A stretch of DNA of 64,000 nt. Source: Roseibium sp. MMSF_3544 (GTDB lineage: Bacteria > Pseudomonadota > Alphaproteobacteria > Rhizobiales > Stappiaceae). The stretch covers positions 310,001-374,000 of the forward strand of contig NZ_JASHKA010000001.1 of NCBI RefSeq assembly GCF_030732845.1. Direction: 5' to 3'. Below are positions 14,401 to 56,877 of this stretch, in pieces (within the stretch, counting starts at the first letter, position 1; each line of letters begins with the position of its first letter). The notes beneath the pieces were generated by a model. That model was given only the letters and a program-made list of their open reading frames with translations, was not told the origin of the DNA and made no database searches. A program made the translations under genes and the position numbers.

Positions 14401-17400
14401 GCGGTCGGCCAGCACATCTGTAATGTTGCGGGTCTTTTCCTCCAGCGCATCGCTGATGCCCGTCGTGCGGTTCTCGATGGCATCTGCCAGGATCTGGGTG
14501 CGTGCTTCAAGCGTGGCTTCAAATGCCGCCGTGCGCTGATCGAGGGTCAAGTCGAGCGTGTTGATATGGCTGCCGAGCGAGGCATCCATCGTGGTAATGC
14601 GCTCGCCGAGGGACCGGTCCATCGTGGACAGACGGTTTTCAAGCGTGGCATCGATCGTGCTGACACGGGCGCCGAGCGACGTATCCATGCTCGCCAGACG
14701 GCTCTCCAGCGTCGTGTCCATGTAGGCGATTTTTTCACCGAGGGAGTTGTCCGCTGACATGAACCGGTGCTCGAGCGAGGCATCCATGGTGCTGATGCGA
14801 TCGGCAAGCGTCGCGTCCATCGTCGTGAACCTGTGCTCAAGCGACGTGTCCATTGTCGCGATACGCTCGCTCAGAGTTGCATCGATGGTGCCGTAGCGCT
14901 GGTCGAGGGAAGCGTCCATTGCGGCAATGCGGCCGTCAAGGGAGGCGTCAATCGAGGACAGACGCTCACCAAGCGTGGCATCCATCGTGGAGAGACGGTC
15001 GCCAAGCGTGTGATTGATCGTCGAGATACGTTCGCTGAGCGTGGCATCGAATGTCGAAATGCGCTGGTTGAGCGTGGAGTCGATGGCCGCAGTCCGGCTG
15101 TCCAGGGAATTGTCCATGGCAGCGATGCGGTCGCCGAGCGTGTTGTCGAGCGTGGAGAGGCGATCACCGAGCGTGGTATCAAACGTTGAAATACGCTCGT
15201 TGAGAGTGGAGTCGATTGCCGCTGCCCGGTTGCCCAGGGAGTTGTCCATGGCCGCAATACGGTCCCCGAGCGATGCGTCCATGGCGTCGATGCGCGTCGC
15301 GAACGTCGTGTCGAGGGTGGACAGGCGGGAATCGAGCGACTCCGACAGAAGAAGCGTCTTTGTGTCGAATGCATCGACGAGCTGCCCGCCGCGTTCGGAA
15401 ACGATCGTGTCCAGTTCGGCGAGCCGGCTCGACAGGCCCTCCTGAAGCGCGCCACCGCGGACTTCGAGCGTTTCGGCAATCTGGCTGCTCACCTGATTGA
15501 TGTTGTTCGCGACCCGGTCGCCGCGGCTGCCGATCAGTTCGGCAAGCTGCGTGCCCGTGTCCGCCAGCTTGTGGGTGAGGGTACCTGTCTGTTCGCCAAG
15601 ACCGGCGGCAAACTGGCTGGAGACGCTTTCAAGCGTGTTGCGGAAGCCGACCGTCTGTTGCTCCAGCATGGTCGCCATTTCGTTGCTGCGCGCTGTCAGG
15701 CGCTCGTCCAGCTCCGTACCATTGATGGAGATGGCGGTGTAAATGCGCTCAGAGATGCTGTCGAGCTTCTCTGCAAGCTCGCCGCCGCGCACGGATATTG
15801 TCTGCGTGAGAGAACCTGCCGTCTCGTCGAGCTTGGCGGCAATCTCGCCACCGCGCAGGGACAGGTCGACAACAATGCTCTCGCCGGTGCCGCGCAGGAT
15901 TTCCGCGACCTCGGTCGAACGGCCGGACAGCGTTTCGACGATTTCCGCTCCACGAATGGAGATCGTGTCGGTAACGGTCTGGCCGCGCTCGGAAATGCTC
16001 TCCACGACACGCTTTCCGGTCACCGCAAGCGACTCGTCAAGGCTGGTGACACGGCTGTCGACAGTGGTGACGAGTTCTTCGGTGCGCGAGGTGATCGTAT
16101 CGATCAGGCGGCCCGAGGTCAGCGACAGGTTGGCGTTGATCTCTTCGCCGCGCTGCGTGATGACGTCCCCGACGGTAATGCCGGTGTTCTCCAGCGTCGC
16201 ACGGAACTCTTCGGCCTTGTTGCTGAGCGTCGAAATCACGGAAGTGCTTGAAGATGAAAGCGTTTCGTTGATTTCGGTGCCGCGAAGCTCCAGCGTTTCG
16301 ACGAACGCGCTTGCAGTTTCTGCGAAACGTTCGTTCACTTGGTTGCCGCGCGCGGAAAGGGTTTCCCACATGGTCGAGCCGGTTTCGGCCAGATTATCGA
16401 CCAGTTCGTGACCCGTCAGGGACAGGCGGGACACATAGTCCTCTGCACGAACGCTCAGATTGTCGACGAGTTCGTTGCCGGAGGCGTTCAGCGTCGCACC
16501 GAGGGACTCGATCCTGGAATCCACGGTCGTGGTCAGTTCCTCAACCCGGCTGTTGACGGCGTCGATCATGCGCTGGGTCGACTGGTCGACCGTGCTGCCC
16601 AGGTCTCCGGAAGTTTCAGCAAGCTGGGCGGAATACTTCTCGTGCGCGCCCGCGATGGTTTCGCGAACTCTTTCCGCATTGATCACGATGGATTCGCGCT
16701 GGCTGACCAGTTCCTCAATCAGGGCGCGGATCTTGAGTTCATTGTCGTTGTAGGACCGCTCGAGCGAAGATACCTCATTGTGCACAAGGACTTCGAGCTC
16801 GCTGGCGCGCGCGATCGCGCGTTCGATCCCGTCGCCCATCGCGGCAACTTCGCGGCGGATGGCCTGGCCGACGCTGAGAATGGATTCCTTGGCCATGTCC
16901 TCCGGTTCTGCGAGGCGCAGGGCAACTTCCGTCATGCCGCGGGCGACGATGCGCATTTCCTGCGCGCGCCAGATCATCATGGCCATGACGAAGAAGAAAA
17001 TGATCGGGACGAGAATTCCGACGGCTGCGAGGATCATTTCCGGCGAGGAGAAAAGAGCCTGCGGATCGCTCAGCGACGCCATCTTCTCGGAGAAGGCGGA
17101 CATGAAAAGGCTGATGCCAAGTGCAGCCCAGACCGCGCTCAGTGCGAGCGCTCCCCAGAACGGGGCCGAGGACGGCCGGCGCTGAAGGGCATAGATCAGG
17201 TTTCCGATGTTGCGGCGATCGTCATTGGCCGCAGGCGGGCGGTTGTTGCGTCCGCGCCTGCGGGAGGAGCGCTGCTCTTCACGCGGCGGAGCACTTTGCT
17301 TGGCGGGTTTGGACTTCTTCGCCGGCTCGGCGTCAGCTTCTGTCGCCACACTTGCTTCAGGTGCCGGTTCTTCGGCAGGGATATTTGCATCAGGACCGCC

Positions 17401-17478
17401 GAAATCGAGTTTCAACGCTTCTTCAACTGCTGACAGTGCCGCTTCCGCCGGATCTTTAGCCTTTGTCGGATTTGCCAT
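11410..17478 (-). CDS. gpr: Giant membrane-anchored hendecad-repeat protein, GPR/RgsE-like polar growth protein
   Basis: A 2022-residue protein. Residues 1-100 are disordered, acidic then Arg/Lys/Pro rich. Two hydrophobic helices (about 107-129 and 148-170) anchor it in the membrane. From about 185 to 1750 it is almost entirely helical and lacks proline and cysteine. Within this, 22-residue units (such as LELRGTEINETLSSSSTSV) run from about 350 to 715, then about 25 uninterrupted 11-residue units of form xDxxLxxRxxx occupy about 719-993. A Pro/Gln/Ala linker (about 1800-1890) leads to a compact conserved C-terminal domain. The size, anchor and apolipoprotein-like repeats match GPR (Growth Pole Ring) of Agrobacterium and RgsE of Sinorhizobium, which form a ring at the growing pole. 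The function is inferred from that architecture. Confidence 0.85.
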   Translation of the reverse strand: MANPTKAKDPAEAALSAVEEALKLDFGGPDANIPAEEPAPEASVATEADAEPAKKSKPAKQSAPPREEQRSSRRRGRNNRPPAANDDRRNIGNLIYALQRRPSSAPFWGALALSAVWAALGISLFMSAFSEKMASLSDPQALFSSPEMILAAVGILVPIIFFFVMAMMIWRAQEMRIVARGMTEVALRLAEPEDMAKESILSVGQAIRREVAAMGDGIERAIARASELEVLVHNEVSSLERSYNDNELKIRALIEELVSQRESIVINAERVRETIAGAHEKYSAQLAETSGDLGSTVDQSTQRMIDAVNSRVEELTTTVDSRIESLGATLNASGNELVDNLSVRAEDYVSRLSLTGHELVDNLAETGSTMWETLSARGNQVNERFAETASAFVETLELRGTEINETLSSSSTSVISTLSNKAEEFRATLENTGITVGDVITQRGEEINANLSLTSGRLIDTITSRTEELVTTVDSRVTSLDESLAVTGKRVVESISERGQTVTDTISIRGAEIVETLSGRSTEVAEILRGTGESIVVDLSLRGGEIAAKLDETAGSLTQTISVRGGELAEKLDSISERIYTAISINGTELDERLTARSNEMATMLEQQTVGFRNTLESVSSQFAAGLGEQTGTLTHKLADTGTQLAELIGSRGDRVANNINQVSSQIAETLEVRGGALQEGLSSRLAELDTIVSERGGQLVDAFDTKTLLLSESLDSRLSTLDTTFATRIDAMDASLGDRIAAMDNSLGNRAAAIDSTLNERISTFDTTLGDRLSTLDNTLGDRIAAMDNSLDSRTAAIDSTLNQRISTFDATLSERISTINHTLGDRLSTMDATLGERLSSIDASLDGRIAAMDASLDQRYGTIDATLSERIATMDTSLEHRFTTMDATLADRISTMDASLEHRFMSADNSLGEKIAYMDTTLESRLASMDTSLGARVSTIDATLENRLSTMDRSLGERITTMDASLGSHINTLDLTLDQRTAAFEATLEARTQILADAIENRTTGISDALEEKTRNITDVLADRSDAITLQLGQRIESAGNTLADRASEIGQTLSDRVDGAAASMAEKAELLSASMTSGTDRIDETLDARARQISETLITRTKEIAKAFVEGQDEMTNALDNRLSEAGNVLSKQSEELTESLSERIAEINVSLGAKVFEVAETLDSRATQLESILNDRLESISGTLTDESERARDILTAVISEAGATLSTESTRLRDVVEEAVTGAVQTLSDERTKTVEIVDGALTQATEKLTGESDRMRQVVLGSVGEARGVLVGESQKAADTVSNAMQQATGALSGESNKIRDLVLAAVGDAARAMAAESEKARTLYAGTLAEFSGSLTGESEKVRNQLSGLIAEISGNLSAESEQARATLSNTLEEIRGQMSSEAGMVRARVNSAVSEAADLLVGRGNDVANDLLEKATQLNEAFGARSGELAKLVGTDGNELINAIEARANDLTGRLSEVHGAILDAITVKGRDVTDTFANTGLDATRTLVEAGDRIIASISERSDKAATLLSDTKQRLEADVTDILNKVEESNTNLQGIVTTAGENLTEVEGNLARRAGEFRSAVDRAVQETNQTTSLIDEQVSNLRDVTQTTLADIMNLTNRFGDQSEELTRAARHLEDTNTSVEGRVAARRTAIEEVADTLLAKTEAVDTLMRSFTQTLSETLESADDRARDAANMLGAAAEAASNQVSEQFESMRLTAGMEGQKARDAIRSAQDDIISEMTKTVSDASERFSDAATRMRDVARDVHRELEATRNELKQGVLNLPDEAEESSAALRKVVNEQIRALTELSEIVAKQSNTLDISRPQAQAATASAAPAPQQPSTPAPAQFAPVQQASVHQAPSADLRPAQGRPVEPRRQQPAQPQSGNPAGKGWVADLLRRASQDEDDAGEDTSMGRNPLHTVESLNSLSVDIARAIDHETFIDLWNRYRGGERNVFTRRLYTLQGQQTFDEIRQKYSRDPEFRTAVERYVTDFEQLLAQVSRNDRDNMLGQTYLTSDTGKVYTMLAHASGRFD
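14491..15324 (-). repeat. 33-bp coding tandem repeat (about 25 hendecad units)
   Basis: DNA encoding the 11-residue array of the giant protein. Each unit is 33 bp and encodes patterns such as MDASLGDRIAA, IDSTLNERIST and MDATLGERLSS. About 25 consecutive units show no insertion or deletion. Copies are diverged at the third codon positions rather than identical, so the array is old or under selection for exact register. Confidence 0.85.
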
Positions 17479-24574: not shown

Positions 24575-25627
24575 CTATTTGCTTTCCTTGGCTTCTTTCT
24601 CCGCCCGCTCTGAAGAGGCGATCAGCTCACCCATGAAGTCCTTCACATTCGGGCCGTTGCTGTCAACAAAGGGTGCGGGGCGGCAGACGGAGATCGCGGC
24701 AATCCCGATACGAGCGGTGAGAATGCCGTTGATCACGCCTTCTCCCAGCCGCGCCGACAAACGCGCCGCCAGTCCGTGCCCGAGCAGCTCGGAAGCGAGA
24801 CTGTCACCGGCGGCCATGCCTCCGGTCACCGCAAGGTGGGCAAGCACATGTTTGGCGAGCCGAAGGAAACCGAGCGTTCCCGGGCGTCCGCCATAAAGGG
24901 CAGACAGGCGGCGAATGATGCGCAGGTTTTCAAACAGGACCACGAGCAGGTCGACCAGCGCCCGCGGACTGACTGCCGTGACAAGCGAGACACGCTTGGC
25001 GCTGTTCAGGACAATTTTCCGGGCTTCCTGATCGAGCGGTGCCAGCAAATCCCGTTCGGCAAGGCTTACCAGGTCTCTTCCGTCGATAACCTCGCGCATA
25101 TGACCGGCCAGTTCCTTGCGGCCTCGGGCAGTCTCCGGACGATCGCGGTAAAGATCGAGAAGTTCTTTCAAGCCTGCGGATGCCTTTCTGGCATCGTCTT
25201 CATCGGCGGCCACCTGTAGCTTTTCGCGCAGATGATCAATGCGGCCAAGGCGCATCAGCCCGCTGACTTCCCGGATCACCAGCCCAAGCAGACCCAACGC
25301 GGCAATGGCGGCAAGGGCGACACCGAGCCAGCCCAGCCAATCGGTCCGCGCAAACAAATCGCGGATCAGGCTGTCGACGGCGAGACCGACCGCGAGCGAG
25401 ACGAGACCGCTCAAGCCGATCATCAGCCATTTGCCGAAACCGAAACCGGACTTTGGTGTGCTGGCGTTGCGTGGGAGCCGTGGTTCGTCCTCTTCATGAA
25501 CGTTCTGGGTGATGATGGCTTCATCGGCGACAGGCATCCTGACATCGTCATCGGACACGTGTACCTTGCTGTCATCGAGACGGAAGGCGGCCGGTTTGCG
25601 GCTGTCGGGCGGTGTTGTTCCGGTCAT
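24575..25627 (-). CDS. YcjF/TIGR01620 family membrane protein (DUF697)
   Basis: A 350-residue protein with a soluble N-terminal segment of about 70 residues, two hydrophobic helices (about 70-95 and 100-122), and a C-terminal DUF697-type helical domain with further hydrophobic stretches (LLVVLFENLRIIRRLSALYGGRPG). The family pairs with YcjX; here the ATG overlaps the ycjX stop by 4 bp (ATGA), so the two are cotranslated. In E. coli ycjX-ycjF are phage-shock (PspF) regulon members. Function unknown, envelope stress suspected. Confidence 0.92.
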   Translation of the reverse strand: MTGTTPPDSRKPAAFRLDDSKVHVSDDDVRMPVADEAIITQNVHEEDEPRLPRNASTPKSGFGFGKWLMIGLSGLVSLAVGLAVDSLIRDLFARTDWLGWLGVALAAIAALGLLGLVIREVSGLMRLGRIDHLREKLQVAADEDDARKASAGLKELLDLYRDRPETARGRKELAGHMREVIDGRDLVSLAERDLLAPLDQEARKIVLNSAKRVSLVTAVSPRALVDLLVVLFENLRIIRRLSALYGGRPGTLGFLRLAKHVLAHLAVTGGMAAGDSLASELLGHGLAARLSARLGEGVINGILTARIGIAAISVCRPAPFVDSNGPNVKDFMGELIASSERAEKEAKESK

Positions 25628-27276
25628 GCCAGTCGGTCTCCGATCAGGAATTCAAGCGCGCGGTCCAGACGGATATGCGGCAAGGACAAGGTCAGGCCCT
25701 CGGCTGTGGTATCTAGCTCCGGAGGACGAAAGCGCAGGAACTGAAGGCTGGCGGGCTTTTGGCGGATCTTGGGTCCGGTGACTTCAGAAACTGATTCATC
25801 CAGCCGAAAAAGTGATTCAGGATCTTTCGGCAAGTCACCGGGAAACATGGCGATTTCCGTGTTGCCGTCGTATTCGTCACCGTTCAACTGTTGGCCGGGC
25901 AGAGGTGTTCCGAGGATCGCCGGAAGCTCTTGTCCGCGGTGTTTGACGGTGGCTTCCCGCGTTGCGCGGACGGCAGCCATGGCAAGCACTTCCACTTCCG
26001 CGCCCTTGAAACGGGCACGTTCTTCAGCGCGCGTCACGAGCCGTTTCAGGATCGCCTCAAGCCGGTCGTGATCCGCGCTGTGCAGGTGATCCGCCTTGGT
26101 GGCTGCAAAGAGGATCCGGTCGATCCGTCTCGTCAGAATGGAAGAGAGCCAGCTGCGTTTTCCGGGCCGGAAGGCGCTTAAGACTTCGCCGAGCGCGACT
26201 TCCAGATCAGCGATCGCATGCGGTCCGGCATTCAGCGCATGAAGCACGTCGACCAGAACGATCTGGCGGTCGAGCCTGGCGAAATGATGCCTGAAGAAGG
26301 GGCGCACGACATGGGTTTTGTAAGCCTCGTAGCGACGCTCCATCATCGCGCGAAGCGTCCCGGAGCGGGCAGGGGGCGCATCGGCGGGAATGTCGAGCGG
26401 TGCAAATGTCAGGGCAGGAGAGCCGTCCAAGTCGCCCGGCATCAGGAACCGACCCGGTGGCAGCATGGAAAGCGCATGCGCATCGGCCCGGCAGGCAGCG
26501 AGATAGGTCTTGAAACGGGACGCCAGTTCCTGGGCGGCTGGTTCGTTTTCGTCCGACTGCGGATCGCTATCGGCAAGTATCGTCAGAAAGGGCTCGGCAA
26601 TCCGGGACCGGTTCTCAGCCCGTGCGCGTGTGAGGGCTTCGGCGGAAAAGGTCGCGAAGTCCTTGCCCAACAGCGGCAGGTCCAGAAGCCATTCACCCGG
26701 ATAGTCGATCAGATCGACATGAAGACGCCCCGGCCCGAGCTTGCGGTAGAAGTAGGACGCGCTCTCGTAGTCGATTGTCAGCCTCAATTCGGAAACCTGG
26801 CGTGTCGAGTCCGGCCATATGCGTTCCTTTACGAGCGCACCCACATGGCTTTCGTAGTCGAAACGCGGAACAGCATCGTCCGGCTGTGGCTGGAGCTGGG
26901 CTGACGTCATCCGGCGCCCGGCCGACGCACTGAAAAGCGGCAACCGCCCGCCGTGGACAAGATTATGCACAAGCGCGGTCAGGAACACGGTTTTGCCGGA
27001 CCTTGCCAGGCCCGTCACACCGAGTCTCAGGCTTGGTACTGCAAGCCCGGTCGCCGCATCAGCAAGGTTGGCGAGCGTGAGCCGGGTTTCTTCCGTTAAT
27101 GAAGTCAGTGAATTCAAGAGCGCCTCCAGGGCGTTCATGTAGGCGAGCGGTGGCTCAAGTGCAATCGGAGACGGAAATCGCGTCTTGCCAATTTGCAGCG
27201 CTCGCATGAGGAAGCATTGCTTGCGGTCTGCCGACGTTCTGGCTCTACCGAGTGCTGTTAAGCTTACATTAGTCAT
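25624..27276 (-). CDS. YcjX family P-loop protein (DUF463)
   Basis: A 550-residue YcjX-type GTPase-like protein. The Walker A motif is GLARSGKTVFLTALV (near residue 85-100). Later conserved parts are DLIDYPGEWLLDLPLL (Walker B region), FFRHHFARLDRQIVLVDVLHALNAG and LFAATKADHLHS (NKxD-like TKAD). The family is usually about 470-500 residues, so the first 46 residues may be an over-extension. The ATG at 27276 has a GAGG ribosome site, while ATGs at 27207 and 27138 are alternatives. It is coupled to the YcjF-type gene. Confidence 0.92.
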   Translation of the reverse strand: MTNVSLTALGRARTSADRKQCFLMRALQIGKTRFPSPIALEPPLAYMNALEALLNSLTSLTEETRLTLANLADAATGLAVPSLRLGVTGLARSGKTVFLTALVHNLVHGGRLPLFSASAGRRMTSAQLQPQPDDAVPRFDYESHVGALVKERIWPDSTRQVSELRLTIDYESASYFYRKLGPGRLHVDLIDYPGEWLLDLPLLGKDFATFSAEALTRARAENRSRIAEPFLTILADSDPQSDENEPAAQELASRFKTYLAACRADAHALSMLPPGRFLMPGDLDGSPALTFAPLDIPADAPPARSGTLRAMMERRYEAYKTHVVRPFFRHHFARLDRQIVLVDVLHALNAGPHAIADLEVALGEVLSAFRPGKRSWLSSILTRRIDRILFAATKADHLHSADHDRLEAILKRLVTRAEERARFKGAEVEVLAMAAVRATREATVKHRGQELPAILGTPLPGQQLNGDEYDGNTEIAMFPGDLPKDPESLFRLDESVSEVTGPKIRQKPASLQFLRFRPPELDTTAEGLTLSLPHIRLDRALEFLIGDRLA

Positions 27277-27388: not shown

Positions 27389-28810
27389 ATGTCTGAGCCG
27401 GTTCTTGTAGTAGATCTTGATGGAACACTACTTAAGTCAGATGTTTTATTTGAGAATTTTTGGAATGCGCTCGGGAAAAATTGGCTCGGTTGCTTGAAGG
27501 CATTGGCATTGCTGCCTCAGGGCCGCGCCGCATTCAAGGCGAAACTGGCCGAAGTCGCCAAGCTTGAACCGGAAACCTTGCCCTATAATCAGGACGTCAT
27601 TTCCTACGTGAAGTCCTGGCGAGACAGGGGCGGTAGAACCGCGCTGGTAACTGCCACCAATCAGACGCAGGCCCAGATGATCGCGGAGCACCTGGCTCTG
27701 TTTGACGAGGTGCATGGGTCAGACGAGAACAGGAACCTGAAAGGGTCTACCAAGGCGGATTTTCTGTCCGAGCATTTCGGTGACGCCGGGTTTCACTACG
27801 TGGGGGACTCAACGGCGGATCTGCATGTCTGGCAAAAGGCAAAGAAGGCGATCACGGTCGGAATTCCGAAGAGCCTGAAAACCAAGGTTGCTGCGCTAGG
27901 TGTCGAGACCGAACATCTTCGTTCCGGGGCACGAGACTTCAAGCCCTATGTCAAAGCAATGCGCCCGCACCAGTGGCTCAAGAACGTTCTGGTCTTCGTG
28001 CCGATGTTTACGGCGCATCAGATTGATTTAGCGACATTTTTCCTCAGCGTGCTTGCCTTCATCGCCTTCGGTCTCATCGCCTCGAGCGTCTATCTGGTGA
28101 ATGATCTGCTTGACCTTAACTCGGACAGAACGCACCCGAGAAAATGCAAGCGGCCACTCGCCTCAGGCAGTCTGCCCATCCTGCACGGATCCCTCCTGGC
28201 ACCAGCGCTTCTTGCCGGTGGCATCGTAATCTCGCTTTATCTGGGCTGGCAATTCCTGCTGGTAATGGCCGCCTACTACGTGGCAACGACCGCTTATTCG
28301 TTCAATTTGAAGAAACGCAGCATTGTCGATATCTGCGTTTTGGCTGCGCTTTACACTGTTCGGATCGTCGCTGGGGGCGTTGCGACGGGATTGCCGCTCA
28401 CTGTCTGGCTGCTCGCGTTTTCGCTCTTCTTCTTCTTTGCGCTGGCCGCCGTGAAACGGCAGGCCGAACTTCTGGACAATGCCGAGCGCGGCAAGCTGAA
28501 CGTGACAGGGCGAGGCTATTTCGTCGATGATCTGCCAATCATCCCGATCATGGCCATAGCGTCAGGCTATGTTTCGATCCTCGTCTTCGCGCTTTACATC
28601 AACTCGCCGGCGGTTGCCGAGCTCTACTCCTACCCGCCTGCACTTTGGGCCATCTGCTTTGTGTTGCTCTATTGGGTCAGCCGCTTGGTCATGGTCACCC
28701 ACCGCGGGCACATGCATGATGATCCGCTCGTTTTCGCAGCCAAGGACCGCAACAGTTACATCTGTGCCGTGTTCATTCTGGTCTGCCTGCTGACCGGAGC
28801 GCTTCTATGA
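27389..28810 (+). CDS. HAD phosphatase-UbiA prenyltransferase fusion, probable decaprenyl-phosphate phosphoribosyltransferase
   Basis: A 473-residue fusion. Residues 1-190 form a HAD hydrolase with VVDLDGTLLKSD (motif I), ALVTATN (motif II) and VGDSTADLHVW (motif IV). Residues about 200-473 form a UbiA prenyltransferase: MRPHQWLKN, first Asp-rich motif NDLLDLNSDRTHPRK, second region YSFNLKKRSIVDI and about eight membrane helices. In mycobacteria the UbiA enzyme Rv3806c moves phosphoribose from PRPP to decaprenyl phosphate and a separate phosphatase follows; here the HAD part could do that step. The related NoeC of Azorhizobium serves Nod-factor arabinosylation. GAAGG lies 8 bp before the chosen ATG. 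First gene of a coupled operon. Confidence 0.88.
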   Translation: MSEPVLVVDLDGTLLKSDVLFENFWNALGKNWLGCLKALALLPQGRAAFKAKLAEVAKLEPETLPYNQDVISYVKSWRDRGGRTALVTATNQTQAQMIAEHLALFDEVHGSDENRNLKGSTKADFLSEHFGDAGFHYVGDSTADLHVWQKAKKAITVGIPKSLKTKVAALGVETEHLRSGARDFKPYVKAMRPHQWLKNVLVFVPMFTAHQIDLATFFLSVLAFIAFGLIASSVYLVNDLLDLNSDRTHPRKCKRPLASGSLPILHGSLLAPALLAGGIVISLYLGWQFLLVMAAYYVATTAYSFNLKKRSIVDICVLAALYTVRIVAGGVATGLPLTVWLLAFSLFFFFALAAVKRQAELLDNAERGKLNVTGRGYFVDDLPIIPIMAIASGYVSILVFALYINSPAVAELYSYPPALWAICFVLLYWVSRLVMVTHRGHMHDDPLVFAAKDRNSYICAVFILVCLLTGALL

Positions 28811-29235
28811 CGCTCCATGTTTTGATCATCCGATACAGCTTCTTCGCGGTTCTGGCGACGCTTGCCAATCTGCTTGCCCAACGCGTGGTTCTGTCCACTG
28901 GAGAAACGGTTGTTCACTACATTATTGCCGTCGGCGCCGGGACGCTTTGCGGCCTTGTTCTGAAATACATTTTGGACAAGAAGTGGATTTTCTACGACGA
29001 GACGACCGACCTTAAGCAGAACGGCTGGCAGTTCGTTTTTTATACCGGAATGGGTGTCGTCACGACGGCGATTTTCTGGGCGACGGAGACAGCCTTCTGG
29101 GTTTTCTTCGGGACAGATCAGATGCGGGAGCTCGGTGCAATTCTCGGACTGAGCGTCGGGTATATCGTCAAGTATCAGCTCGACCGGCGGTATGTTTTCA
29201 CGGACGCAAAACTTCATGTGGGACAGTGCACATGA
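28807..29235 (+). CDS. GtrA family membrane protein
   Basis: A 142-residue protein with four membrane helices and the GtrA pattern (YSFFAVLATLANLLAQ, LVLKYILDKKWIF, VGYIVKYQLDRRYVF). GtrA proteins are thought to flip polyprenyl-linked sugars across the inner membrane. Its ATG overlaps the UbiA stop and its stop overlaps the dprE1 start (ATGA at both ends). In mycobacteria a GtrA homologue (Rv3789) also lies beside dprE1-dprE2, which supports a shared pathway. Confidence 0.9.
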   Translation: MTLHVLIIRYSFFAVLATLANLLAQRVVLSTGETVVHYIIAVGAGTLCGLVLKYILDKKWIFYDETTDLKQNGWQFVFYTGMGVVTTAIFWATETAFWVFFGTDQMRELGAILGLSVGYIVKYQLDRRYVFTDAKLHVGQCT

Positions 29236-30554
29236 AGCTGAGCGGCTGGGGCAGATATCCGGTTTGTGAGACCGAGGTGCAGTTTCCGCGCACGCAGGAA
29301 GCTGTCAGTGCGGCGTTGCGGGAAGGCCCAGCGATTGCACGCGGCAATGGACGCTCCTATGGTGACACCGCGCTCGGAGCACCGAATACGCTCGACATGC
29401 GGCACTTCAACCGCATGATTTCCTTCGACGATGCCACCGGAACACTGACCGCAGAAGCCGGCGTTCTCCTGGCGGACGTGATCTCCTCCTTTCTGCCGCG
29501 TGGCTGGTTCCCCGCCGTGACGCCGGGAACCAAATTCGTCACTCTCGGTGGCATGATCGCCGCCGATGTGCACGGCAAGAACCATCATCGCGATGGCAGT
29601 TTCCGCCAATTTGTCGACTGGATCGACCTGATGGACGAAACGGGCGAAGTCCTGAGATGTTCCAGAACGCAAAACGCGGAGCTCTTCGACTGGACCTTGG
29701 GTGGAATGGGGCTTACGGGCGTCATTCTACGCACGGCAATCAGGCTCCGCCGCGTTGAAACCGGATGGATCTCGCAGACAACTCTGCCGGCGCCCAATCT
29801 CGATGCAGCGATTGACCTGATCGAGTCAAACCTGGACGCACTCTATTCCGTTGCCTGGATCGATTGCCTTGCCACTGGTTCCGATACGGGCCGCTCGCTG
29901 GTCATGCTCGGGGAGCACGCGCTTTTGGCGGAACTCGGCAAAGACCAGTCCGCTCATCCTTTCGGCACCGAAGCCAAACGGTCGCTCTCCGTGCCAATCG
30001 ACTTTCCTGCCTTCAGCTTGAACAGGTACTCGATCAGGGCGTTCAACAGCCTCTATTACTGGAACGGCGGGCGTAAATCCGGTGAGAGCCTCGTCCACTG
30101 GAACGGCTATTTTTATCCGTTGGACGCGATCCTTGCATGGAACCGGATCTACGGGCGTCGCGGGTTTTGCCAGTTTCAATGCGCTCTTCCCCTGGAAACG
30201 TCGGCAAAGGGTCTGAAGGCGCTTTTGACCGAGACTTCCAATGCTGGCCTCGGATCGTTTCTGGCGGTGCTAAAGCGTTTTGGAGAACAAAGCGGCCAGT
30301 TTTCCTTCCCGATGCCGGGCTACACACTGGCGCTTGATTTCCCGATGGGGCGGTACACGGAAGATCTTCTGAAGCGTCTTGACGACATCACGATCGAAAA
30401 TGGCGGGCGCTTTTATCTTGCCAAGGATGCTCGCATGTCCGCTGCGACATTCGCTCGAAGCGACGATCGGGTGAGAAATTTCAAACACATGAGACGCGAC
30501 GCGGGGCTCGATCACCGTTTCCAGTCGCATCAGTCAAAGAGGCTAGAACTTTGA
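29232..30554 (+). CDS. dprE1: DprE1-like FAD oxidase of decaprenylphosphoryl-ribose epimerisation
   Basis: A 440-residue VAO-type flavoprotein. The FAD-binding part includes AIARGNGRSYGDTALG, VTPGTKFVTLGGMIAADVHGKNHH and TLGGMGLTGVILRT. The C-terminal half has FSFPMPGYTLALDFPMG and FYLAKDARMS, where the Lys equals the catalytic K418 of mycobacterial DprE1. It oxidises the ribose 2'-OH of decaprenylphosphoryl ribose. At the position of mycobacterial Cys387 (NVCVDFP) this protein has Ala (TLALDFP). An ATGA overlap with gtrA decides the start at 29232. Homology is strong; the substrate in this organism is inferred. Confidence 0.9.
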   Translation: MKLSGWGRYPVCETEVQFPRTQEAVSAALREGPAIARGNGRSYGDTALGAPNTLDMRHFNRMISFDDATGTLTAEAGVLLADVISSFLPRGWFPAVTPGTKFVTLGGMIAADVHGKNHHRDGSFRQFVDWIDLMDETGEVLRCSRTQNAELFDWTLGGMGLTGVILRTAIRLRRVETGWISQTTLPAPNLDAAIDLIESNLDALYSVAWIDCLATGSDTGRSLVMLGEHALLAELGKDQSAHPFGTEAKRSLSVPIDFPAFSLNRYSIRAFNSLYYWNGGRKSGESLVHWNGYFYPLDAILAWNRIYGRRGFCQFQCALPLETSAKGLKALLTETSNAGLGSFLAVLKRFGEQSGQFSFPMPGYTLALDFPMGRYTEDLLKRLDDITIENGGRFYLAKDARMSAATFARSDDRVRNFKHMRRDAGLDHRFQSHQSKRLEL

Positions 30555-31288
30555 GCAAAGGGTCAATCCTCATTCTCGGAGCCCGTTCGGATATCGGCAA
30601 GGCGGTAGCGCATAGATTTGCCGCTCTCGGGTACTCAATTCAGCTGGCAGCGCGGAACGCCGGCAGCCTGGAACCGGACAAAGCCGACATCAAGGTCAGG
30701 CACAACGTCGATGTGGACCTGTTCGAATTTGACGCGCTTGATCTTGATAGCCATCAGGCCTTTGCGACCGGCCTGCCGGTCTTGCCCGATGTTATCGTCT
30801 GCGCTGTCGGCATGCTGGGTGACCAGGCCGCGGACGAGAAGGATGAAATGGCCGCTTGCAAGGTCATGCGAAGCAACTACGAGGGACCGGCCTCAATTTT
30901 CTCTGTTTTTGCCAATCTTTTCGAAAAGCGCGATTCCGGGACCTTGGTCGGCATCAGTTCGGTCGCCGGGGAAAGAGGGCGCGCAGCAAACTATGTCTAC
31001 GGGTCCGCGAAGGCCGGCTTCACCGCCTACCTTTCCGGTTTGAGAAACCGGCTTGCCGCAAAAGGCGTCCACGTGATCACCGTGCTGCCCGGCTTTGTTG
31101 CCACGCAAATGACTGAGGGTCTCGATCTGCCCCAAAAGCTTACGGCTGAGCCGGAAGAAGTGGCAGCGGCAATTGAAAAAGCGGTCGGCAAAGGCAGCAA
31201 TGTCATCTATGTCCGCCGCATTTGGCAGCTCATAATGATGATCATCAGGAACATCCCGGAAGCGGTGTTCAAGAGGATGAGTATATGA
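30551..31288 (+). CDS. dprE2: DprE2-like short-chain dehydrogenase
   Basis: A 245-residue SDR that would reduce the 2'-keto intermediate to decaprenylphosphoryl arabinose. The NAD(P) motif is ILGARSDIGKAVAHRFAALG (a GxxxxIG variant). The catalytic set is S in GISSVAGERG and YVYGSAKAG (YxxxK). It starts at a TTG that overlaps the dprE1 stop (TTGA), and no ATG occurs nearby, so translational coupling decides this start. Cytoplasmic or membrane associated by its C-terminal hydrophobic helix (WQLIMMIIRNIPEAVF). Confidence 0.9.
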   Translation: MSKGSILILGARSDIGKAVAHRFAALGYSIQLAARNAGSLEPDKADIKVRHNVDVDLFEFDALDLDSHQAFATGLPVLPDVIVCAVGMLGDQAADEKDEMAACKVMRSNYEGPASIFSVFANLFEKRDSGTLVGISSVAGERGRAANYVYGSAKAGFTAYLSGLRNRLAAKGVHVITVLPGFVATQMTEGLDLPQKLTAEPEEVAAAIEKAVGKGSNVIYVRRIWQLIMMIIRNIPEAVFKRMSI

Positions 31289-32382
31289 CTGCCGTCCTGT
31301 TTCCGGTTATTCGCCGGTTTTTTGTTCCACTTTCCCTGCTGTCATACCTTTTCGGGTCGGCCTATACGTTTCTGCACGCCTGGAGCCATCAGGGATTTGG
31401 CTTGATCCAGTGGCTGCTCACGCAATATCACATCAACTACATAGACTTTGGATTTGCCAAACGTGCCATGGTCGGCACCATGCTTTATCCGGTCATGCAG
31501 GCGCTGCCGGATGGCGAGGCACCAGAGTATTTCGCGTTTCTTTTTGTCGACTTTGTGCTGTTTCTCGCGATCGTCTACATCGCACATTCTGCTTTGAAAC
31601 GGGTTGGCGAGGAGCACACCGGATTTGCTGACTGGTTTCGCCTTCTTTTGCTCATAGCGCCCGTTGGATTTGTTCAGTATGCCTCCGACTCCGGCCGTTA
31701 CGACCACTACAATTATCTCCTCGTTTTCTTGGCGGCCTATCTGGTTCTAAATCGAAAATTGGCTTGGGGCGGTGCCATTCTGGCGCTTGGAGCTCTGGTT
31801 CATGAAGCCATCTTCTTTTACGGGGTGCCGATTATCTCGATCCTTGCATTTTTGCAGAGTTACAAATTCCGGGAGGTGGCACTCAGTCTGTTGCCGGTGA
31901 CAGTCGTCATGGCTGCAGTGTTCCTTTACGGGAACCTAGAGGTCGACCTTGCAAGCGTGCTTGGGGAGAAGGTGGCCGCAGGTGCAGAAGTGTGGAGCAG
32001 GGGGGTGCTTGAACCTGCTGAAAATCTGGGTCTTTTCGACGTGGCGGGCCTGATTTTCTATACAGTTCTGCCGTACTATTTCTTCTTCCGATTCTTTGAG
32101 GAAAATCGCCTGCCTCTGATCCTTGTGGGTTGTCAGATGTTTTTTGTCTGCGCGCTTTTCCTTCTGGGGATCGATTATGCACGGTGGGCGCACCTTGTGT
32201 TTTTCTCGTGCGCGACGGTCGTGATTTCGCTGTTGTGTCACGATCAAAAACTGAGGCTTCCATCCTTGAACGGTTGGGAAAAAATTGTGTTTGCACTCTA
32301 CCTGGTGCCGGCGGGCCCGCTCGGGACGACACATCCGCTGCCTTATGTCAGCAAAATCGCTGAAAAACTGTTTCAGTCGTGA
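31285..32382 (+). CDS. Polytopic membrane protein of the DPA-type operon, candidate sugar transferase or export protein
   Basis: A 365-residue protein with about nine membrane helices. Notable soluble motifs are HINYIDFGFAKRAMVGTML near residue 45 and YASDSGRYDHYNYLL near 135, followed by GALVHEAIFFYGVP. Such acidic/His loops near the membrane face recall EpsG-like or GT-C-type proteins, but I cannot assign a family. Its ATG overlaps the dprE2 stop (ATGA), so it belongs to the operon and may use the lipid-linked pentose. The ATG at 31285 is chosen over an upstream frame extension that overlaps dprE2. Confidence 0.85.
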   Translation: MTAVLFPVIRRFFVPLSLLSYLFGSAYTFLHAWSHQGFGLIQWLLTQYHINYIDFGFAKRAMVGTMLYPVMQALPDGEAPEYFAFLFVDFVLFLAIVYIAHSALKRVGEEHTGFADWFRLLLLIAPVGFVQYASDSGRYDHYNYLLVFLAAYLVLNRKLAWGGAILALGALVHEAIFFYGVPIISILAFLQSYKFREVALSLLPVTVVMAAVFLYGNLEVDLASVLGEKVAAGAEVWSRGVLEPAENLGLFDVAGLIFYTVLPYYFFFRFFEENRLPLILVGCQMFFVCALFLLGIDYARWAHLVFFSCATVVISLLCHDQKLRLPSLNGWEKIVFALYLVPAGPLGTTHPLPYVSKIAEKLFQS

Positions 32383-37249: not shown

Positions 37250-40200
37250 ATGGGTTCTTCTTCCAAAAGCATTCATCAGACCTACAAGCTCTACGGCCTT
37301 TACGGCAACAAGGACGGCGGGTCGGGCAACGACAAGCTTTACGGCTATTCAGCGATCAAGAACGATCTGCGCGGCGGCTCGGGCAACGATTTCGTCGGTG
37401 GCTGGGCGCCGCTCAATTATCTGCGTGGCGGCTCCGGCAACGATACCGTCAAGGCCTATGGCGCAACCAATCACCTTTGGGGCGACAGCGGCCATGACAA
37501 GCTCTACGGCTACGGAGCCTACAACGCCATGTATGGCGGCACCGGTCACGACAGCCTTTATGGTTACGGCGCGAAAAACGTCATGCGCGGCGACAGCGGC
37601 GAAGACAAGCTCTACGGCTACGGCGCCTACAACGACATGGACGGCGGCAGCTGGAACGACAAGCTCTACGGCTATGGCGCGTCCAACAAGATGAAGGGTG
37701 GCTCGGGCCACGACAGTCTCTATGGCTACGGTGCTTCAAACAACATGTATGGCGGCACCGGCAACGACACGTTGAAAGGCTATGGAGCCTCCAATGTCAT
37801 GCGCGGCGAGGACGGCAACGACACCCTTGAGGGCCGGGGTGCCTCCAACGTCATGTATGGCGGTGACGACAATGACACCCTGAAGGGTTATGGCGCATCA
37901 AACGTCATGAACGGCGACAGCGGCAATGACCAACTTTACGGCTACGGCGCATCCAACGTGATGCGCGGGGGAAGCGGTAACGATCATATGGAAGGTCACG
38001 GTCTCTCAAACGTGATGTATGGCGACAGTGGCGACGACACGATGGAAGGCCGCGGTGCCTCCAATGTCATGCATGGCGGCACCGGGAATGACGACATGGC
38101 CGGCTACGGCGCCTCGAACGTCATGTACGGCAATGACGGTGAGGACCTTATGGAAGGCCGCGGCGCTTCGAACGTCATGCGCGGTGGCAACCAAGACGAT
38201 GAAATGTACGGCTACGGTGCCAACAACGTCATCCACGGCGACAACGGCAATGATTACATTGAAGCCAAGGCTGGCGTGACGACAGCCTTCGGCGGTGATG
38301 GCAATGACACCATCAAGGCCGCCGGCGGCGTTAATGTCCTCAACGGCAATGACGGCGACGACACGATCGAAGCCATCGGCGGCGTCAATGTCGTGCACGG
38401 CGATGCGGGCAACGATGACATGTTCGCGCTTGGCGGCGTCAACACGATGTTCGGCGGGACCGGAGACGACCGGATGAAGGCACTCGGCGTTGCCAACGTC
38501 CAGTTCGGCGGCGAGGGGGAAGACCTGATGGCCGCTGCCGGCAACGGCAACCTTCAACTCGGCGAAGCAGGCAACGACCAGCTCTACGGTCTCGGCGTGA
38601 ATGTCGGACAATTCGGCGGCGACGGGGAGGACATCCTGGTCGGCGTAGCGGGCCTCAACCTGCAGCACGGCGGTGCGGGCAAGGACAAGCTGTTCGCCGT
38701 CGGCGGTGCCAACATACAGATCGGCGGATCCGACGATGACTTCCTGATGGCAGGCGGTGCCAACAACATTCAGTTTGGCGATCACCTCTGGAGCGCGATC
38801 CCCTCGGATCTCGGCTTTGACGACGGCAAGTTCGCGGAAGTCATCGAGAACTTCGACGAATATTTCGAAACCGAAGGTGGCGGCACCAACGTGATGATCG
38901 GTGGCGGAACCAACAATCTGCAGTTCGGCGGCTCCGGAAAGGACTATGCGTTCGGTGCCGGCGGCATGACCACCCAGGTCATGGGCCAGGGCAATGACGT
39001 CATGGTTGGCGGCGGCATCGGCGTCGTTCAATATGCGGATGCCGGAAATGACATCGTCATCGGCGGCGGCCAGGGCGTCGCGCAGTTCGGCGGCGACGGG
39101 TCGGACGTCATGTTCGCCGCGGCAAAGGTTGTGGCTCCTCAATACAAGGCCGCCGCCTCCTTCCAGTACGGCGGTGCCGGGACGGATGTCATGTTGGGCC
39201 TTTCCATCGGGAAGGACGCAACGGCAACCCTGTCACTGAACACCGAGACGGACAGCAACGGCAACCGTAAAGGTGGCATCATAGAGGGAGCCCTGCCTGA
39301 CGAACTCGTCGTGACTGCTCAGCTTGGCGGCGAGGGGGCGGACCTCATGGTGGCCGAGGGGCCGGGTGCAATTGTCCACGGCGGTGCCGACAACGACGTT
39401 GCGCTCAGCCTGGCAGATGCAAATTCGCTCGTGATGGGCGGTGCAGGCGATGATCTCGTCCTGACGGCGAAGGGTCTCGGCGAGATGGCAGAGGTCCTGG
39501 CGATGCCGGAGGAGATCGACAGCATCGACGAACTTGCGGACCTGTCCTTCAGCTTCGGCAATTTCTACGCCGGCGGCAGCGGTTCGGACGTGATCATGGA
39601 CGTTATGGATTTCACCAAGATCATGACCCACGACGCGCTGACCGATGTTCCCTGGGTCCAGGATTTCCGTTCAGCACTGACTGCCACGGTAACAGCGATT
39701 GAAGGAATTGCCGCACCGATCACCGATCTGATCGATACGGTCTCCGATCTCAGCCCGGAGCTTGGGATTGCCGGCCTCGGGTCCTACGAAGTCAGCGCCA
39801 ATGTCACCATGGGCGGCATCGGTGACGATGTTCTGGGCGGCGAAGGGTTCCTCTCCGGTGAGGCGGGCGACGACATCTACACGATCTGGGCGAATGGCGA
39901 GGCGACAATCGCCGAGCGTGCGACGGATGGCGTGAAATCCTTCCTGGAGGATTTCGGTGTCGAACTGCCGGTTCTGGATGAGGTTTCTCAAACGCCGGAC
40001 GGCAACGACATCATCGAATTGCGCAGTTTCTCGCTTCAGGCCATGGATCAGGACGCCTTCCACTTCGTCAAGTCGGACGATGCGCTCCAGATCCAGCTTG
40101 ACGACAAGACGGTCGCCACCGTGCACGGCATGGACGATGAGACGACCGCGGTTGAGTGGTTGAAGGTTGTCCAGGGTGCGGACAGTTTCCAGTTCGACCT

Positions 40201-40441
40201 GAAGGCAATCTACGACGAGCCGGATCCGATGGATGATTTCGCGTTTGCCGTCGAAAGTGTCTCGGTCGGTTCGGACACGCTCGCGTCCGGTGATATCCTG
40301 GGCCTTCTGTCTGGCGCCGCCGAAACGCTGTCCGCGTTCGGCTCGTCCGAAAGCGACGCGGCCCAGACCGACCTGGCGGCCGCTCAGGCACACGGTGCCA
40401 ACGCCCTCACAACGATCATTCCGGAAACGGATTTCATCTGA
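37250..40441 (+). CDS. RTX/MARTX-like glycine-rich repeat protein, probable substrate of the adjacent acyltransferase
   Basis: A 1063-residue acidic protein. After 19 residues it enters 27 consecutive 18-residue units (residues 20-505) of form NVMxGGSGNDxLxGYGAS, combining the RTX calcium motif GGxGxD with a GxxN turn. These units fit the G-7x-GxxN pattern known from MARTX repeats. Less regular GG-rich units continue to about 720. Residues about 770-1063 form a distinct acidic C-terminal region with more RTX blocks (GGIGDDVLGGEGFLSGEAGDDIYTIWANG), typical of type I export signals. There is no signal peptide and no N-terminal hydrophobic pore-forming domain. Role unknown: adhesin, surface-layer protein or unusual toxin. 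Confidence 0.9.
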   Translation: MGSSSKSIHQTYKLYGLYGNKDGGSGNDKLYGYSAIKNDLRGGSGNDFVGGWAPLNYLRGGSGNDTVKAYGATNHLWGDSGHDKLYGYGAYNAMYGGTGHDSLYGYGAKNVMRGDSGEDKLYGYGAYNDMDGGSWNDKLYGYGASNKMKGGSGHDSLYGYGASNNMYGGTGNDTLKGYGASNVMRGEDGNDTLEGRGASNVMYGGDDNDTLKGYGASNVMNGDSGNDQLYGYGASNVMRGGSGNDHMEGHGLSNVMYGDSGDDTMEGRGASNVMHGGTGNDDMAGYGASNVMYGNDGEDLMEGRGASNVMRGGNQDDEMYGYGANNVIHGDNGNDYIEAKAGVTTAFGGDGNDTIKAAGGVNVLNGNDGDDTIEAIGGVNVVHGDAGNDDMFALGGVNTMFGGTGDDRMKALGVANVQFGGEGEDLMAAAGNGNLQLGEAGNDQLYGLGVNVGQFGGDGEDILVGVAGLNLQHGGAGKDKLFAVGGANIQIGGSDDDFLMAGGANNIQFGDHLWSAIPSDLGFDDGKFAEVIENFDEYFETEGGGTNVMIGGGTNNLQFGGSGKDYAFGAGGMTTQVMGQGNDVMVGGGIGVVQYADAGNDIVIGGGQGVAQFGGDGSDVMFAAAKVVAPQYKAAASFQYGGAGTDVMLGLSIGKDATATLSLNTETDSNGNRKGGIIEGALPDELVVTAQLGGEGADLMVAEGPGAIVHGGADNDVALSLADANSLVMGGAGDDLVLTAKGLGEMAEVLAMPEEIDSIDELADLSFSFGNFYAGGSGSDVIMDVMDFTKIMTHDALTDVPWVQDFRSALTATVTAIEGIAAPITDLIDTVSDLSPELGIAGLGSYEVSANVTMGGIGDDVLGGEGFLSGEAGDDIYTIWANGEATIAERATDGVKSFLEDFGVELPVLDEVSQTPDGNDIIELRSFSLQAMDQDAFHFVKSDDALQIQLDDKTVATVHGMDDETTAVEWLKVVQGADSFQFDLKAIYDEPDPMDDFAFAVESVSVGSDTLASGDILGLLSGAAETLSAFGSSESDAAQTDLAAAQAHGANALTTIIPETDFI
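37307..38764 (+). repeat. 54-bp coding tandem repeat, 27 units
   Basis: DNA encoding the 27 units of 18 residues in the glycine-rich protein. No unit is longer or shorter. The first 17 or so units keep GYGAS-NVM; later ones drift to AxGGV-NVx, showing a gradual change along the array. Confidence 0.88.
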
Positions 40442-41399: not shown

Positions 41400-42449
41400 A
41401 TGCGGACTGAACAAACCTTTGATGAGTCGATCACCGGGGCGCCGGGCAAGTCGTCACCCATCTACCGGAAGAAGAAAGCGCTCGTGACCGGAGGTGCCGG
41501 TTTTCTGGGGTCTCACCTATGCAAGCGTCTGCTTGACGAGGGCTACCAGGTCATCTGCCTGGACAATTTTTCAACCGGCCAGTTCTCCAATATCGATGAC
41601 CTGACAACGCACGCGGATTTTCAGCTCGTCGTCCAGGACATCGAGAAGACACTTGACGGTGTCGGGGATGAGCTTGACGAAATCTATAATCTTGCGTGCC
41701 CCGCGTCCCCGCCGCACTACCAGCTCGATCCTGTCCGGACGATGAAGACCAACGTTATGGGAGCAGTCAGTGTTCTTGACTTGGCCTGTCGGACCGGTGC
41801 GACGGCGTTTCAGGCCTCCACGTCGGAAGTCTACGGTGACCCGCTGGTCCATCCGCAGCCGGAATCCTATTTCGGCAATGTCAATCCGACCGGACCGCGA
41901 GCTTGCTACGACGAAGGAAAGAGAGCCGCTGAAACACTTTTCTTCGACTACGCCCGAACACGGGCTGTGCCGATCAAGGTTGTTCGGATTTTCAACACCT
42001 ACGGTCCGAACATGCGGCCCGATGACGGACGCGTCGTTTCAAATTTCATCATTCAGGCTCTGCGCGGTGAGGACATCACAATATATGGAACCGGCAACCA
42101 GACCCGTTCCTTTTGTTATGTCGATGATCTGATTGAGGGTTTCCGGCGTTTCATGATGACGCCTGACAATGCCCTGGGTCCGATGAATCTCGGCAACCCA
42201 GGTGAATTCACCATTCTGGAGCTTGCCGAAAAGGTCATAGAGAAGACTGGGTCCCCATCGAAACTCGTCTTTCTTGAAAAGCCGAAGGACGATCCGCAAC
42301 AAAGGAAGCCTGATATCAGCCAGGCCAGCCAGGAGCTTGGATGGAAACCTGAAATCAGCCTCGACAAAGGGCTGGATTTCACGATTGCGCATTTCGACAA
42401 CGTGCTCAGCAAGGCAGATGCCGGACCATTTGTGGAGGCGGCTGAATGA
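41400..42449 (+). CDS. uxs: UDP-glucuronate decarboxylase (UDP-xylose synthase)-like SDR
   Basis: A 349-residue extended SDR. The NAD motif is [11 protein letters not shown]. The family-typical block [26 protein letters not shown] is followed by [39 protein letters not shown], with Tyr/Lys in YDEGK, and [22 protein letters not shown]. These are hallmarks of Uxs, which makes UDP-xylose from UDP-glucuronate. The first 25 residues form an extra basic tail. Stop and the next start overlap (ATGA), so uxs and the epimerase gene are coupled. First gene of the polysaccharide locus. Confidence 0.9.
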
Positions 42450-43429
42450 ACAAGCACAAGATCCTTGTGACAGGCGGTGCGGGTTTCATCGGCAGCCACA
42501 CCTGCAAGCAACTTGCCTCCGAGGGCATCGAGCCCGTCACATACGACAACTTGAGCACAGGCAATCTTGAAGCCGTTCGCTGGGGCCCGTTCCTGCGAGG
42601 TGACATTCGCGATACGGCGCATCTGCGTGAGACCCTTGCCGCATTCGGCGTGGAGACGGTCATTCACTTTGCTGCGTCGGCCTATGTCGGGGAATCCGTC
42701 AAAGATCCGGCTGCTTACTACGACAACAATGTGCGCGGTACGCTCTCGGTGCTGGAGGCATGCCGCGCGGCCGGGGTCGACCAACTGATATTCTCAAGCA
42801 GTTGTGCAACATATGGCATTCCGCCAAAGTTGCCGATTTCCGAAGACAGTGTTCAGGACCCAATCAATCCATACGGCAAAACCAAGCTCATGGCGGAGCA
42901 CATCATAAAGGATTACGCCAATGCCTACGGATTGAAGTATGTCATTCTGCGCTACTTCAATGCCTCTGGCGCTGATCCCGATGGAGAGCTCGGCGAGTGG
43001 CACGATCCAGAAACGCATCTGATCCCGAGGGCCATGATGGCCGCTGCCGGTCGGTTGCCGCATCTGGATGTGTTCGGCGCAACATACGACACGTCCGATG
43101 GAACATGTCTACGCGACTATGTCCATGTGCGGGATCTCGCCGACGCACATGTGCTCGCCTGGCGTCATCTGGATAATGGCGGTGAGAGCTCTGCGTACAA
43201 TATCGGATCGGGTCAATGCCATTCCGTGCGCGAAATCGTCGACAGCGTCGAGCGTGTCACCGCGCAACCTGTCCCGATGCAGGTCAGGGAAAAACGTGCT
43301 GGCGATCCGCCGGTCCTTTATGCAAATCCGCAAAAGGCAAGCGACGAGATAGGCTTTAAGGCACGCTACTCGGATATCGACACAATCGTCAGGACAGCGG
43401 CTCCGTTTTTTGGTCTGGAGGCCCGCTGA
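42446..43429 (+). CDS. galE: GalE-like UDP-sugar 4-epimerase
   Basis: A 327-residue SDR. NAD motif [51 protein letters not shown] site with SSSCATYG and NPYGKTK, and [28 protein letters not shown] typical of GalE. It could interconvert UDP-Glc/UDP-Gal or, in view of the coupled uxs gene, UDP-Xyl/UDP-L-Ara as Uxe does in Sinorhizobium. The sequence alone does not settle which. Confidence 0.92.
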
Positions 43430-43430
43430 G

Positions 43431-45317: not shown

Positions 45318-45356
45318 GGCCTGCTGCCGCTCAAATGGACTGTTCAGGAGATCAGA

Positions 45357-56596: not shown

Positions 56597-56702
56597 CACC
56601 GCTTTTCCTATTCAGACCCAAAGTGGGTGTCACCAAGTGCGCAAAGTCATGCGCGCACCTTTGACGTAAAACTAAATGGAAAGTTAATCGGTCATGCACT
56701 GA

Positions 56703-56832: not shown

Positions 56833-56877
56833 TGATTGTCAGATTGTGAGTCGTGCGTCTGACTGATTCTTCTAGTC

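Follow-up and report, generated by a model that had tools for sequence, protein, structure and literature searches.

Five close-packed plus-strand genes occupy positions 27389-32382 of the DNA analysed here, a 64,000-nucleotide stretch of the Roseibium sp. MMSF_3544 genome (contig NZ_JASHKA010000001.1, positions 310,001 to 374,000; hereafter the window). All four junctions are 4-base stop/start overlaps (ATGA at 28807, 29232 and 31285; TTGA at 30551); stop-to-start overlap had been described in an earlier reading made from the letters and open reading frames (ORFs) of the window (hereafter the sequence-only reading). The operon is made up as follows, with counterparts given from the rhizobial noe genes and the lines of evidence in brackets:

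27389..28810, plus strand: gene 1, HAD-UbiA fusion, 473 amino acids (aa) (Pfam, NCBIfam, PDB, tree)
28807..29235, plus strand: gene 2, small membrane protein of the GtrA family, 142 aa, counterpart of noeN (Pfam, NCBIfam, noe identity)
29232..30554, plus strand: gene 3, DprE1-like flavin adenine dinucleotide (FAD) oxidase, 440 aa from ATG, counterpart of noeH (PDB, NoeH identity)
30551..31288, plus strand: gene 4, DprE2-like short-chain reductase, 245 aa, TTG start, counterpart of noeO (PDB, NCBIfam, motifs)
31285..32382, plus strand: gene 5, polytopic membrane protein of an unnamed family, 365 aa (family profile, linkage, topology)

Gene 3 has an alternative GTG start at 29226, with which its overlap with gene 2 becomes 10 bases; for gene 5, starting at 31285, a longer ORF reading from 31222 is unnecessary.

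The four families proposed by the sequence-only reading for genes 1-4 are borne out by concordant Pfam, NCBIfam and PDB matches. Gene 1 carries a HAD phosphatase domain at about residues 7-146 (Pfam E 1e-8; DxDGT at 9, GDSxxD at 139), and from about residue 187 a UbiA-type polyprenyl-phosphate phosphoribosyltransferase part (Pfam E 4e-20). It scores 634 bits with the NCBIfam HAD-UbiA model PRK08238 (cut-off 351) and matches Rv3806c in the PDB (E 6e-32), and its UbiA part scores higher with decaprenyl-phosphate phosphoribosyltransferase (DPPR synthase; 165 bits, cut-off 207) than with heme O synthase (37) or UbiA (21). Gene 2 is matched by Pfam GtrA_DPMS_TM (E 1e-9) and NCBIfam gtrA_1 (163 bits, above the cut-off of 50). 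Gene 3 is matched by Pfam FAD_binding_4, by NCBIfam DprE1 (396 bits) and, over its whole length, by DprE1 in the PDB (E 2e-72), its stretch DVHGKNHH aligning with DIHGKNHH of DprE1. Gene 4 is a short-chain dehydrogenase/reductase (SDR) with the YxxxK motif at residues 150-154, matched by NCBIfam DprE2 (199 bits) and, full length, by DprE2 in the PDB (E 1e-32). These full-length matches argue for a predicted DprE1 oxidase and DprE2 reductase, and the HAD motifs for a putative 5-phosphate phosphatase; the occurrence of a HAD phosphatase as a separate gene of the same run in two related loci (genomes G865 and G158) supports the phosphatase step.

The noe operon, to which the sequence-only reading had related these genes through Azorhizobium, is their closest characterised relative. 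Both have the order UbiA-GtrA-DprE1-DprE2-membrane protein, that is, the order of noeC-N-H-O-P on NC_022536, the symbiosis plasmid of Rhizobium sp. IRBG74, whose genes are named here by gene order after the operon described in passages of PMC5080398. Genes 1-4 are 57, 46, 60 and 60% identical to IRBG74 NoeC, NoeN, NoeH and NoeO, gene 1 over 299 residues of its UbiA part only. The two operons differ in that the alignment of NoeC (387 aa) is confined to the UbiA part, with no HAD domain seen, and in that gene 5 is not detectably of the NoeP family; no nod genes were recognised among the window proteins scanned.

The UbiA domain itself was compared with solved Rv3806c, whose residues contacting phosphoribosyl pyrophosphate (PRPP) or Mg are named in a section of PMC10994848. 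Ten of the 11 comparable contacts (R22, K28, Y70, N73, D77, K87, R90, Y138, K143 and Y157) are kept in gene 1, as R192, K198, Y235, N238, D242, K252, R255, Y303, K308 and Y322 (numbered from motif positions), and one, Gln135, is changed to Thr300; Lys208, also named there, falls outside the alignment. In a tree of 20 UbiA domains, for which the program warned of long branches, 16 cassette proteins including NoeC separated (94/94) from the source genome's four other UbiA proteins. Three of the latter lie above NCBI cut-offs, as heme O synthase, 4-hydroxybenzoate octaprenyltransferase and a chlorophyll-synthase-type protein, and the fourth had no match at E 1e-20. A placement of gene 1 with quinone or heme prenyltransferases had been named beforehand as the outcome that would contradict the sequence-only reading; gene 1 groups apart from them, and the NCBIfam scores and the tree together rule out a quinone, heme or chlorophyll prenyltransferase.

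D-arabinofuranose donors are best known from mycobacteria, and homologues by sequence of Rv3806c, DprE1 and DprE2 of the mycobacterial decaprenylphosphoryl-arabinose pathway are present in the operon. GtrA, we assume from its family, stands in place of Rv3789. The phosphatase here is the fused HAD domain, unrelated to Rv3807c, and no Emb/Aft-type protein was recognised among the operon neighbours scanned. The operon also resembles the three-component periplasmic pentofuranose addition of Citrobacter youngae O1/O2 (GT136), which has a HAD-UbiA synthase/phosphatase, an exporter and a membrane transferase; there, in contrast, the exporter is of the MATE type instead of GtrA, and none or one SDR takes the place of the DprE1/E2 pair. 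The likeness of gene 5 to GT136 is drawn at the level of system description.

Taken together, the operon probably makes and uses lipid-linked D-arabinofuranose, with genes 1-4 providing the donor, GtrA its export and gene 5 its transfer. The HAD part of gene 1 would remove the 5-phosphate, gene 3 would oxidise polyprenyl-phosphate-ribose at C2, and gene 4 would reduce the keto sugar to the arabino form; gene 2, a candidate flippase, would carry the donor to the periplasmic face, where gene 5 would take the arabinofuranose off the lipid and pass it to an acceptor on the cell surface such as exopolysaccharide, lipopolysaccharide (LPS) or protein. Gene order and overlaps, the protein families, the kept active-site residues and the repeated finding of gene-5 relatives beside donor genes are observed; the reactions, the carrier lipid, the sugar and its acceptor, and the functions given to GtrA and gene 5 are inferred. 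The lipid-linked pentose of the sequence-only reading is thus supported by the homology of genes 1-4, which are best read as a polyprenyl-phosphate D-arabinofuranose pathway. Its 'decaprenylphosphoryl' label fared less well, the carrier being more likely undecaprenyl phosphate, the view taken in the relevant passages of PMC11127046.

Could the sugar be another pentofuranose, with ribose kept or xylose formed, and genes 3 and 4 acting unlike DprE1 and DprE2? Both proteins miss the NCBI equivalog cut-offs (396 of 500 bits for DprE1 and 199 of 250 for DprE2), as does gene 1 (165 of 207 for DPPR synthase, the lowest of three such models with cut-offs of 207, 234 and 474), and related cassettes of the order carry an EamA protein, an epimerase and a class III aminotransferase, so that DprE1-like proteins may serve other products. 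Nevertheless, genes 3 and 4 are the counterparts, at 60% identity, of NoeH and NoeO, whose operon yields D-arabinofuranose on Nod factors, and the xylofuranose system relies on one SDR epimerase, ORF13, not on a pair (PMC11127046, in its account of that system). We therefore regard another pentofuranose as unlikely.

The donor pathway as such is already known, since the noe operon papers and PMC11127046 describe it: noeC, noeH and noeO were likened to mycobacterial enzymes in part of PMC2443382, and a Gram-negative version is in print (PMC11127046, PMC5080398). In the sections of PMC11127046 (Kelly et al.) concerned, the Gram-negative pathway is shown biochemically for ribofuranose, and DprE1/E2 homologues are reported in candidate systems of glycans holding arabinofuranose. 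No paper on this operon or on the gene-5 family turned up in a literature search that had most subscription journals outside its reach. What is new is the host and the gene-5 family, which often travels with arabinose donor genes. In the compact five-gene alphaproteobacterial version every step is open to testing, and an unassigned transferase family gains a candidate.

The five-gene version also suggests another reading of noeN in the Nod-factor operon. According to excerpts of PMC5080398, deletion of noeP abolishes and deletion of noeN lowers Nod-factor arabinosylation, and NoeN was suggested as a possible phosphatase. In IRBG74 the gene in second position (L037 5582-6004; noeN by order) carries a GtrA annotation and matches gene 2 of the window, and we therefore read NoeN as an exporter of the GtrA family, not an evident phosphatase; the partial loss of arabinosylation in the noeN deletion fits a redundant exporter.

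Sequence searches of Pfam, NCBIfam and PDB left gene 5 and the family profiles without any match, and so without one to a known GT-C family. A single-sequence search found no relative of gene 5 among 60 relatives of the source organism (36 of them congeners), 396 other genomes of the order and a plasmid set, and six gene 5 peptide patterns found none in a species-level genome collection. The family was reached through L080 of G379 (another family of the order), a membrane protein directly behind DprE2 with a marginal match to gene 5. A two-sequence profile (gene 5 and L080), run on 385 genomes of the class, then turned up strong relatives in G676 (two) and G466 (one) and weak matches in G619 and G446. 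Wider profiles and member searches added G823, G608, G865 and, weakly, G947 in 299 genomes of the phylum, a Ruegeria conchae relative among the plasmids, and G158, G361, G101 and eleven genomes of one genus in 395 genomes of the order. The G101 member (E 4.5e-8 in one search, missed by a separate profile search at E 0.001) keeps all six residues, R60, G64, H173, P182, D297 and R300, that are invariant in 16 of 16 aligned members, four of which come from the one genus. Two viral contigs were rejected as carriers of the family: their likeness to L080 is confined to a short stretch of a protein with no or one membrane helix. Averaged over the family, hydropathy and charge agree with an N terminus in the cytoplasm and about 10-11 helices and, as we read them, would place R60, H173, D297 and R300 on the periplasmic side, where the lipid-linked donor would be used.

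Gene 5 is the last gene of the operon, after DprE2, as NoeP, the Nod-factor 3-O-arabinosyltransferase, is in IRBG74. With GtrA available for export and gene 5 in the position of NoeP, gene 5 is best read as a user and not an exporter: by elimination and position a pentofuranosyltransferase, tentatively GT-C-like. The sequence-only reading had left both possibilities ('uses or exports'), of which the first stands and the second loses ground.

Its linkage to donor genes was counted over loci found independently of context, which leaves out L080, chosen for its place. Eleven such loci are known outside the one genus, and ten were opened; a second Ruegeria place counted by the plasmid searches was not in the range 362000-460000 of the 787 kb record. 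Six of the ten, one of them in another class, have UbiA and DprE1-like genes no more than 5 kb away (6/22 over all loci, the unopened ones scored as misses):

G158 relative: 12 bases behind DprE2, same order as the window
G676 first copy: 12 bases from the donor genes, convergent
G865 relative: inside the donor run
Ruegeria relative: 1398 bases upstream of the donor genes
G466 relative: 1533 bases from the donor genes
G361 relative: 4482 bases from the donor genes

The remaining four (the second G676 copy, G823, G608 and G101) are not cassette-linked, the G608 contig ending 1.6 kb behind the relative. At E 1e-70, 95 of 397 genomes of the order hold a UbiA protein of this type, in some cases lacking the HAD part, and all but one of these genomes have a single copy, so that adjacency by chance should be rare. 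The arrangement of the window, with the family member immediately behind DprE2, recurs in G158 and in the context-picked G379.

A different division of labour would make gene 5 a flippase, alone or with GtrA, for the same donor, the transferase being encoded elsewhere in the genome. The G865 run, which has a gene-5 relative and no GtrA match among the ORFs examined, is followed by a PMT_2 membrane protein, a candidate transferase, and further membrane proteins lie near the Ruegeria and G466 cassettes. G865, though, has an LPG_synthase_TM protein that could flip, and a GtrA match stands beside the gene-5 relative in seven loci (window, G379, G676, G466, Ruegeria, G158 and G361), where a second flippase would be redundant. 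Moreover, gene 5 is the sole further membrane protein seen in the run in the window, G379 and G158. A flippase role is thus improbable. Still less do we expect gene 5 to be a polymerase- or ligase-like enzyme, of the Wzy/WaaL kind, that joins preassembled arabinose-bearing chains: the invariant Arg and His without an invariant loop-1 carboxylate are unlike described GT-C enzymes and several relatives adjoin polysaccharide genes, but no family member significantly matches any Pfam or NCBIfam model and the operon of the window holds no other glycosyltransferase.

Returning to the operon as maker and user of lipid-linked D-arabinofuranose, with gene 5 as the transferase, several observations, together with the missed equivalog cut-offs, weigh against this interpretation. 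Several solved GT-C enzymes have a proposed catalytic Asp in the loop after helix 1 (PMC11127046, in the passages on these enzymes), whereas no acidic residue of that loop is kept in at least 12 of the 16 aligned members; nine members carry D, E, Q or H at position 47, where gene 5 has Q. The family thus differs from those GT-C enzymes in having no invariant loop-1 acid and no similarity to a known family. An AlphaFold2 model of gene 5 from two sequences reached a predicted local distance difference test (pLDDT) score of 39, an unusable fold. Gene 5 and NoeP align in BLAST at 26% over 136 aa (E 0.04, small set), with an hhalign probability of 0.2-0.3% and a profile E of 2.7, none of them significant. 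EA-F-P and D-x-x-R stretches do occur at similar spacing in the gene-5 family and NoeP, and the loose pattern E[AG]..F..P to D..R picks out eight of 115 membrane ORFs (three of the gene-5 family, NoeP of IRBG74 in two hits, the S. alkalisoli NoeP counterpart, and L104/L105); a stricter pattern with R..VG retains three of the 115, all of the gene-5 family, and NoeP fails it. These comparisons do not show gene 5 to be NoeP by sequence; from the BLAST value and these motifs NoeP may be a distant relative. As to linkage, the six opened loci of the one genus had no cassette within 20 kb, and another membrane protein that could be the transferase lies near the cassette in L148, L160 and L040. By sequence the nearest relative of the Ruegeria member (51%) is the non-cassette G676 copy, which comes after a GMC oxidoreductase and an SDR (L145 5998-9555), and such a GMC and SDR pair lies 17 kb from the Ruegeria member (L194 16404-18775). 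Because of this relative and this pair, the Ruegeria member may be tied to the GMC/SDR setting, not to DprE1/E2; GMC oxidoreductase and SDR are perhaps a different oxidase/reductase epimerising pair.

The Ruegeria GMC/SDR pair sits in a polysaccharide cluster. In the one genus, which has large genomes (L178-L181, L184, L185), the gene-5 relative has HH instead of HE in the family motif and keeps a conserved place, presumably adjoining hslU.

Donor cassettes were further surveyed on plasmids, where 64 records have a good gene 3 match (E up to 1e-40) and 11, the IRBG74 plasmid among them, were opened. As the simple ORF chooser picks wrong-strand ORFs in GC-rich loci, locus maps were used only where homologues were recognised. 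UbiA, GtrA and DprE1-like genes come in that order in all 11, with an extra gene before the DprE1-like one in Cereibacter, and an SDR directly follows the DprE1-like gene in ten, Azospirillum having an acyltransferase gene in between. Behind the donor genes there is NoeP or its counterpart in two loci, GT87 in one, GT2 in one and unnamed membrane proteins in three (Rhizobium two, Cereibacter one), the Azospirillum run has the acyltransferase, and in three loci neither a membrane protein nor a glycosyltransferase is encoded on the same strand immediately behind. The four donor genes resemble a module paired with varying users. We consider it quite possible, if short of probable, that gene 5 founds a new family of lipid-phosphate arabinofuranose transferases with an Arg/His/Asp-Arg-Trp site lacking the GT-C loop-1 carboxylate, and that the donor genes are a mobile module among which transferases (NoeP, GT87, GT2, unnamed) are swapped, one donor serving many surface glycans of Pseudomonadota.

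A second cassette type occurs at L122 1810-7690 and likewise at L120-L125, L104 and L105, in congeners and other families. It consists of HAD-UbiA, DprE1-like, EamA membrane protein, NAD epimerase and class III aminotransferase genes (Pfam scan for L122 only), and its product may be a lipid-linked amino pentose.

The distribution of the noe-type cassette is sporadic. Six of the 36 congeners have a second, different HAD-UbiA/DprE1 cassette, and the next best DprE1 match among congeners scores 325 bits vs 395; on this weaker match and the single-sequence search, which gave no counterpart of gene 5 in the 60 relatives, the idea of a genus-wide housekeeping operon was rejected. In the four congeners examined, synteny breaks off at 27145-27165, 0.2 kb before gene 1, and their next 6-7 kb past this break have no match to the window up to 46000. 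The GC content at third codon positions (GC3) of the five genes, 0.60-0.68, differs mildly from that of 45 window ORFs (0.685 +/- 0.039), which a codon score trained in part on the operon had selected. With this mild shift on the one hand and the break just before gene 1 on the other, the operon may or may not be recent foreign DNA.

The window holds no tRNA, and no RNA family reached its gathering score there. The nearest upstream gene reads divergently from the operon:

25624-27276, divergent from the operon: YcjX-like gene (Pfam)

Downstream, the next gene starts at 32562, 180 bases beyond the operon, and has just a weak match. At 41400-46310, 9 kb downstream of the operon, lies an exopolysaccharide-like run of four genes: an NAD-dependent sugar epimerase/dehydratase, GalE (425 bits, cut-off 262), a cellulose-synthase-like GT2 and a protein with a weak GH26 match. 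At 55106-61192, on the minus strand, four similar flagellin-like ORFs stand in a row, of which Pfam confirmed the two checked. At a guess, the acceptor could come from the exopolysaccharide-like cluster or from the flagellins at 55-61 kb.

In the source genome, L003 1390-2346 encodes the (bacterio)chlorophyll-synthase-type UbiA protein mentioned above (318 bits, cut-off 212); its presence is a hint of photosynthesis genes in another part of that genome. Two large proteins are also encoded in the window, one of 2022 residues with nine apolipoprotein-like helical repeat matches (11410-17478) and one with RTX calcium-binding repeats (37250-40441, the scan covering 37250 to 40003).

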